From: Candidatus Yanofskybacteria bacterium RIFCSPHIGHO2_01_FULL_41_21
Lineage (GTDB): Bacteria; Patescibacteriota; Minisyncoccia; 2-02-FULL-40-12; GWA2-44-9
DNA: 45,047 bases
Direction: 5' to 3'
NCBI GenBank assembly: GCA_001794025.1
Contig: MGJA01000010.1
Span: 26,288-71,334, forward strand
Shown: in pieces, positions 6,701 through 7,402 of the stretch
Layout of the letters: each line of letters starts with the position of its first letter
How positions within the stretch are numbered: the first letter of the stretch is position 1
Notes under the pieces: model-generated
The model's database searches: none
What the model was told of the DNA's origin: nothing
What the model saw: the letters and a program-made list of their open reading frames with translations, nothing else
Translations under genes and position numbers: made by a program

Positions 6701-7288
6701 TTGAGAAACCTCATGGGCCGAAAGAGCTGTTCCGCATCGGACACAAAGAGGCACAATCTTGTGGGCCTGATAAAGCAAGTCCTTATCCCAAATCGTCTTA
6801 AGAATATTCCAGACCGATTCCATATATCCCGTTTCGTAGGTAACATACGGATGATCCAGATCCAGCCAAAAACCCATCCGCCGCGTCATGTCTTCCCATT
6901 CTTTGGTATACTTCCAAACACTTTGTCGGGCTTTGCGATTAAACTTAGCAATACCGTATTCTTCAATCTGTTTTTTATTACTAAAACCCAGTTCTTTTTC
7001 AATTTCAATTTCCACGGGTAAACCATGGGTATCCCAACCGGCTTTTCGGAGAACAAAAAAGCCCCGCATGGTTTTATAGCGTCCGTATAAGTCCTTCGGC
7101 AAACGAGTTAAAAAGTGACCGATATGGGGCTTGCCATTGGCGGTGGGCGGACCTTCCCAAAACACAAAACGCTTCCCCTCCCGGCGAAGCTCAAGTGATT
7201 TCTCAAAAATAGCATGATCGTCCCAAAATTTCCGGACCTTATCCTCCGTATTCTTGAAGTCGTACACCAGGTAGTAGAAATCCGACAT
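3746..7288 (-). CDS. ileS: Isoleucyl-tRNA synthetase with an inserted histidine-phosphatase-like domain
   Basis: HIGH motif 'GKPHIGHF', KMSKS '[11 protein letters not shown]', '[22 protein letters not shown]'; insert '[13 protein letters not shown]...[13 protein letters not shown]'. Confidence 0.95.
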   Translation of the reverse strand: [1180 protein letters not shown]

Positions 7289-7402
7289 GCACCTTAGGTT
7301 TTAGACCCAAGCCACAACATCGGACTTTCTTGTTATCTTTATGTCCCGAGGCAGTTAATCTAATCGGTGTAACTAAAACCCGGTCGGATTTTCACTACCT
7401 GG
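7267..7402 (-). repeat. 136-bp terminal-inverted-repeat element containing the ileS start codon (same family as 17452-17590)
   Basis: Arms CCAGGTAGTAGAAATCCGAC / GTCGGATTTTCACTACCTGG; inner stem GGGTTTTAG / CTAAAACC. Confidence 0.75.

Follow-up and report, generated by a model that had tools for sequence, protein, structure and literature searches.

Short mobile repeats, rRNA insertions and nuclease-bearing introns each resemble, in part, the element that we describe here. NEMIS/Correia elements of Neisseria are 100–150 bp long, form hairpins, lie near genes, are transcribed and are cut by RNase III; they duplicate TA, insert near, not at, start codons and have no link to GIY-YIG proteins. 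Group I introns with GIY-YIG homing endonucleases are small, mobile and GIY-YIG-coding, and home without duplicating their target. Among rRNA IVSs, that of Coxiella lies in 23S rRNA and is cut by RNase III; its terminal stem of 28 bp contains a bulge and a single mismatch (PMC4990558). A 2024 survey of rRNA insertions in CPR bacteria places all GIY-YIG proteins in insertions that resemble neither intron type, and describes many insertions of <200 bp as uncharacterised, some of them possibly RNase III-cut IVSs; in the sections considered here, the survey connects these two classes neither with each other nor with start codons (PMC11270868). Finally, a 2025 study predicts that genes, one of them encoding a GIY-YIG protein, passed from Patescibacteria to other bacteria (PMC12455944).

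Our element occurs twice in a 45,047-nt stretch of the genome of Candidatus Yanofskybacteria bacterium RIFCSPHIGHO2_01_FULL_41_21 (the whole stretch is hereafter the window; Table 1). Like a MITE, it is short, non-coding and mobile, has terminal inverted repeats, duplicates its target and is present in many copies; it differs in that its candidate parent encodes a GIY-YIG protein rather than a DDE transposase, its target is the start codon, its core holds, in one genus, a covarying pseudoknot and its ends hold a fixed mismatch. Size and hairpin are shared with NEMIS/Correia elements, whereas the 4-nt duplication, the start-codon site and the GIY-YIG link are not. Unlike group I introns, the window copies have no Rfam intron match, and the element is found at many different host genes with no single conserved homing site. 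It resembles rRNA IVSs in being small and in having a terminal helix that is about as long and also contains a mismatch, and one copy lies in a 16S gene; however, it is found almost solely at protein start codons, whereas the IVS is in 23S rRNA (PMC4990558), and RNase III cutting, a property of IVSs, is putative for the element. The CPR rRNA insertions come from the same bacteria and include both GIY-YIG ORFs in non-intron insertions and short insertions without ORFs, but at rRNA sites (PMC11270868). We found no description of a GIY-YIG element that targets start codons in the open-access literature, which is not proof of absence.

In gene sense, the consensus of the two window copies is CCAGGTAGTGAA(A/T)ATCCGAC ... 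GTCGGAT(T/A)TCTACTACCTGG. The arms have 20 paired positions save one A.C mismatch that adjoins a G.U wobble, and both arm pairs (7267–7286/7383–7402 and 17452–17471/17571–17590) fit the arm pattern with no mismatches, while shuffled sequences average 0.02 matches. The family is about 120–155 bp long and has a fixed end asymmetry, TAGTGAA/TCTACTA, constant in all collected copies partly because the collecting pattern demands it. What the earlier note had read from the sequence, namely the copies and their coordinates, the pairing of the arms and the position of the G.T/A.C mismatch, is all present in the window copies. Likewise, the ileS ATG does lie in the element's arm and yields MSDFYYL, and the inner stem of the tsaD copy differs from that of the ileS copy yet still pairs. 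The gene-proximal duplication at ileS has lost the A of the former ATG, so that the junction reads G|TG, and a GTG at 7267–7265 is an alternative start; annotators should be warned that the ileS start in this genome is partly composed of a mobile element. The genome-wide search for arm pairs that the note had suggested extended the pair of copies to 26 arm matches in the window's own genome (G000), comprising about a dozen full elements and short ones, with no match to a reversed control pattern. Four palindromes of 54–67 bp (L013, L014, L019 and L020) share the outer arms, have different inner stems and mostly lack clear duplications or starts. A GC-rich multi-copy repeat (CCCTTTAGCCCCAGACCC...; 31027–31141 and 34224–34300 in the window, and also L061) seems unrelated to the element.

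Table 1. Copies of the element, duplicated targets, host genes and members of a second end-family in the window
Feature	Position	Strand	Remark
Element copy 1 (136 bp)	7267..7402	-	gene sense, at ileS start
Target duplication TACA (TGTA in gene sense), gene-proximal copy	7263..7266		
Target duplication TACA, promoter-side copy at ileS	7403..7406		plus-strand reading
ATG in the arm, ileS frame (MSDFYYL)	7286..7288	-	
ileS (host gene)	3746..7288	-	
Element copy 2 (139 bp)	17452..17590	+	gene sense, immediately 5' of tsaD ATG
Target duplication ATGG, promoter side of tsaD copy	17448..17451		differs from ATGA by one change
Target duplication ATGA	17591..17594		includes tsaD start codon
tsaD (host gene)	17591..18721	+	
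End-family 2 (TCCCGTTAGA...TCTAACGGGA), small copy	21666..21777	+	last base forms ATG of ORF at 21777
End-family 2, small copy	36732..36842	+	last base forms ATG of ORF at 36842
End-family 2, copy enclosing GIY-YIG frame	24832..25111	-	one internal TAG
End-family 2 (TCCCGTTAGA), further member	15897..15964		

The element is mobile and duplicates its target. In the window's genome, the sequences on either side of the copies show short direct duplications to which the start codon belongs, a 4-nt signature that goes beyond the earlier note. The promoter region and start of tsaD are free of the element in two sister species (G001 and G002), and the ileS start is uninterrupted in G003, where the empty site is ATGTATGACTTC; the ileS start of G001 instead carries an element of another subfamily with TATG duplicated, where G000 has TGTA. 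Across the collected copies, 90 of the 137 scored (one of 138 has too short a flank) show an exact 4-nt duplication at a fixed boundary, against a mean of 25 and a maximum of 38 in 2000 rounds with swapped flanks. The sequence most often duplicated, TATG, is that of the start codon itself, and among copies whose left flank is neither TATG nor CATA the duplication is still present in 26 of 58, compared with 2.7 when flanks are swapped. Insertions at ileS occur in three genomes (window position 7267, L063 in G001 and L031 in G070, the last in a gene that we take from its start to be ileS), one of them 32 nt upstream of the ATG. At another locus of G070 (L039), a single start codon has received tandem insertions from two different end-families, each having duplicated TATG.

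The two-arm pattern was found in 20 of the 383 genomes of the class, at 1 to 32 copies each, and the reversed control in none of the 383. A scan of public genomes returned at least 109 matching stretches; the titles listed for 80 of these name Yanofsky-, Portnoy-, Gottesman- and Nealsonbacteria, as well as Lipton-, Moran-, Terry- and Wolfebacteria, further Patescibacteria or Parcubacteria and, in a few cases, plainly a 'bacterium'. Viral contigs gave one match to the arm pattern. The 138 distinct elements collected in this way are a lower bound (at least 138) and not a census of public genomes.

The element is placed at start codons. In 106 of the 138, a long frame (40 codons or more, or continuing beyond the flank) opens at an ATG that lies between −5 and +12 nt from an end; the arms point one way in 74 of these and the other way in 32, and four elements satisfy the definition in both directions. 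Counting by hand raises the number to about 117 of 138, through eight copies whose junction reads GTG (L062, L038, L047, L051, L116, L128, L015 and L163), two copies before a 37-codon frame that we presume to be bL36-like (L129 and L226) and one at which a second element has shifted the gene start (L039). In the window, by comparison, a gene begins at 27 of the 217 ATGs that lie outside gene interiors and at 6 of 53 TATGs, rough figures that rest on a gene model built from ORFs. About 17 of the 138 copies lie at no recognisable start and four further copies precede short frames alone. The other copies that we inspected are between genes or near gene ends, except the one in 16S, and no interrupted reading frame was recognised among the listed copies of the 138. 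Selection against insertion within genes accounts for part of this placement; it does not explain the rarity of non-coding sites other than start codons. Targeting would explain the placement beyond selection alone, and a preference for TATG, together with some mark of gene starts such as an open promoter, may steer insertion. That the interior keeps one orientation relative to the gene is convincing by eye, but the folding-energy test of it is weak (33 versus 26 with the arms in one sense, 10 versus 4 in the other) and we do not claim it.

The host genes have little in common. Those in the window's genome comprise tsaD, ileS, bL25, MreC, ribosome recycling factor and genes for a tRNA_bind protein, a Phage_holin_4_2 protein and an HD protein, together with an S24 peptidase-like gene next to the GIY-YIG-coding copy discussed below; one copy (C4) precedes a 12-codon frame alone, the host of another (C7) has no Pfam match, and the survey leaves out the host at C12:23192. 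The earlier note had proposed a cis-regulatory RNA shared by genes acting on tRNA-Ile. Its suggested check of the downstream genes turned up functionally unrelated ones that are not restricted to tRNA-Ile functions, and the empty sites in sister species, the duplicated targets and the occurrence of either arm orientation in other genomes likewise speak against the proposal; on the unrelated hosts and the empty sites we rejected shared regulation of tRNA-Ile functions. Within the window's genus, a conserved, covarying structure does stand at start codons in one sense, as the note had expected, and copies at random sites, in either orientation or lacking a downstream start are not the pattern there, whereas both orientations occur elsewhere. 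The note's own alternative, a MITE-like mobile repeat, proved the better reading, if an unusual one given the start-codon placement and the GIY-YIG-coding relative with the same ends.

Upstream of the element, words resembling Shine-Dalgarno sequences are found in 7 of 105 near windows and 12 of 105 control windows. Hexamers resembling −10 boxes occur 12–24 nt before the element in 32% of 111 flanks, compared with 12% far away and 13% after shuffling. These flanks fit genes that lack Shine-Dalgarno sequences and are partly leaderless; given the moderate −10-like enrichment, leaderless starts are likely for a part of the genes, not for all. Around ileS itself we note two further features. Residues 513–673 of IleRS hold an inserted histidine-phosphatase/phosphoglycerate-mutase-like (His_Phos_1-like) domain, and the protein aligns over nearly its full length at 76–80% identity in three sister species. 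Beside the gene, a 119-bp inverted repeat that is 81% complementary (7677–7795 and 9350–9468) surrounds a bAvd/S23-like ORF (7815–8186).

The core of the element is folded. The RNA folding z-scores of the ileS and tsaD copies are −4.8 and −5.35. In 26 elements of the genus, an outer helix P0 and inner helices P1 and P2 in crossing order leave 89.5% of cells paired (97.6% in the 20-nt ends), and sliding the partners by one to three columns lowers pairing to 32–44%. The covariance check that the earlier note had called for, carried out on these 26, shows 16 of 33 pairs altered on both sides, and none of 500 shuffles reaches any of the measures. Covariation in P0 alone would also be expected of terminal repeats; that in the inner helices would not. 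An alignment-free score for crossing stems, for which 28 loci were named and 26 matched, is 13.1 with an element's own arms, 8.9 with swapped partners and 6.6 in shuffles, and reaches at least 10 in 24 of 26 elements against 7% of shuffles, although the relatedness of the elements inflates the swap and shuffle controls. The inner part thus pairs, as the note had it, but a pseudoknot fits better than the plain stem that it described. In the window's genus, then, the core contains a covarying pseudoknot that would fold as structured RNA or as single-stranded DNA too. In other genera, by eye, a local hairpin after the first arm often replaces the pseudoknot, so we do not claim the latter for the whole family. 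An internal motif that could replace the right arm as partner of the left scores 9–10 in 45 of 136 copies (length limits exclude two of the 138) and in 7.9% of shuffles, a lead and no more. Rfam returned no ribozyme or intron for window positions 7240–7430 up to an E value of 5 and nothing above the gathering score at either window copy, and identity with a known ribozyme or group I or II intron was therefore dropped.

The candidate source of the element's movement is a GIY-YIG nuclease. When the same ends were sought around a spacer of 240–270, the sole larger size searched, two of the 383 genomes (G000 and G136) were positive; both of these longer copies (301 and 306 bp) enclose a GIY-YIG nuclease ORF, and no other protein was found between the ends. 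The copy in G136 (L132) has an ATG start and TATG duplications and lies at a gene start in a genome with 32 small copies, while that in G000 has neither an ATG start nor a clean duplication. Their proteins are 56% identical and reciprocal best matches among the 22 compared (of 41 GIY-YIG loci, the remainder being missed by the motif), with L132 almost equally close to L093. A second family of ends in the window comprises small copies, two of them at gene starts, and one copy that encloses a GIY-YIG frame (Table 1), which is probably the decayed parent of that family; the ends of its GIY-YIG copy recur in G006 (L092). A third, also in G000, consists of a 309-bp GIY-YIG copy and three small copies, all four abutting start codons; its exact arms were found in 1 of 383 genomes, so the family is rare or its ends are variable. 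GIY-YIG frames thus lie inside matching ends in three separate end-families. More broadly, 11 of 38 GIY-YIG loci are inside inverted repeats scoring at least 13, compared with 4 of 300 control placements, although some of the 11 repeats may be terminators or unrelated palindromes and the row for L086, an incomplete locus, is meaningless. Judged from these sequences, the GIY-YIG copies are likely to be the autonomous parent of the small element, and GIY-YIG would be what mobilises it. GIY-YIG proteins are not known as transposases, and 18 of the 20 genomes with the small form show no same-end GIY-YIG copy by the strict pattern, which weakens the link to the enzyme, though the pattern is strict.

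One of the 138 collected copies was recognised in rRNA. In G202, the element interrupts the 530 loop of 16S rRNA, where GTGCCAG, the element and CCAGCAGCC follow one another and CCAG is duplicated. A search of that genome found this 16S gene alone, in two pieces; large insertions separate its exons, which are 77–90% identical to the uninterrupted 16S of G136, and a group II intron domain lies nearby. In the 16S gene at L168 (G202:C18:107000-112500), one insertion contains a perfect hairpin whose ends are family-1-like (CCAGGCAGTAGAAATTCGAC). Unless the cell uses another 16S, which a metagenome assembly would allow, the element must be removed from the RNA. The copy in 16S makes removal at the RNA level plausible, and RNase III or splicing may achieve it; an RNase III gene is present in all nine genomes tested.

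Taken together, these observations make it probable, in our judgement, that this is a miniature mobile element whose ends are recognised in trans, most likely by GIY-YIG, and whose RNA is removed at start codons. The small GIY-YIG nuclease of the rare longer copies is the most likely enzyme to act in trans: it would recognise the imperfectly complementary 20-nt ends, and the element would enter and duplicate a target of four nucleotides, as a rule TATG, at the 5' ends of genes. Because the target is duplicated, the host gene would keep its ATG, or gain a GTG or an ATG in the element's arm. Because insertion is at the gene's 5' end, the element would be transcribed, and the message would begin with a 20-bp terminal helix that encloses the folded core. 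The hosts mostly lack Shine-Dalgarno sequences and many seem to initiate near the 5' end of the transcript; translation would then require removal of the helix, for which RNase III is the simplest candidate, and a near-leaderless message would be left.

A conventional MITE would equally well show terminal inverted repeats, a duplicated target and numerous small copies; its ordinary transposase would have gone undetected or been lost, and the GIY-YIG ORFs would be passengers in two copies. The many small-form genomes without a detected same-end GIY-YIG copy fit that account, but the lack of any other protein between the ends, at the one larger spacer size searched, and the recurrence of GIY-YIG within matching ends of three end-families speak against it, and we think it rather unlikely. 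REPIN/BIME repeats moved by a RAYT (Y1) transposase are imperfect palindromes of broadly similar kind; target duplication and start-codon sites do not suit them, and Y1_Tnp, present in G202, G229 and G286, has no match in the other 7 of 10 genomes (G000, G001, G002, G003, G070, G136 and G197), on which ground we rejected this explanation as having next to no probability.

The copy in the 530 loop of the sole 16S gene found in G202, a gene with several large insertions, and the covarying pseudoknot core in the window's genus would suit an intron-like element whose RNA is precisely excised and ligated and which is hence tolerated in 16S rRNA and essential genes. Efficient splicing, however, predicts common in-frame copies, of which none was recognised among those listed, and the window copies match no Rfam ribozyme or intron, so that we consider this improbable. 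Still less credible, and in our view very improbable, is the first proposal, a riboswitch or attenuator controlling translation of the host gene in cis: the conserved fold would indeed bury the start codon and has one sense at all recognised starts in the genus, but the hosts are unrelated, empty sites and target duplications exist, and the distribution is patchy, with either arm orientation elsewhere. The reading that we prefer, a miniature element moved in trans and removed from RNA, is of a real, mobile and structured start-codon element for which a GIY-YIG parent is plausible on sequence grounds. In its workings it resembles a MITE and perhaps an IVS, and it is a candidate member of either class.

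That it represents a new class of mobile element in Patescibacteria, with a GIY-YIG protein of about 85 residues, acting on the imperfect hairpin ends, as its sole product, a length of 120–310 bp, insertion at start codons and occasionally in rRNA, and cutting or splicing of the RNA that would make it tolerable to essential genes, is a possibility that we hold only tentatively. Little is known of mobile DNA in the streamlined Patescibacteria. Insertion at the start codons of essential genes without lethality informs on translation, which appears to be non-Shine-Dalgarno and near-leaderless, and on RNA processing in these bacteria. If GIY-YIG alone moves the element, few autonomous mobile elements would be smaller, and the finding, if true, would offer an explanation for many solitary GIY-YIG genes and for the non-intron GIY-YIG insertions in rRNA genes.
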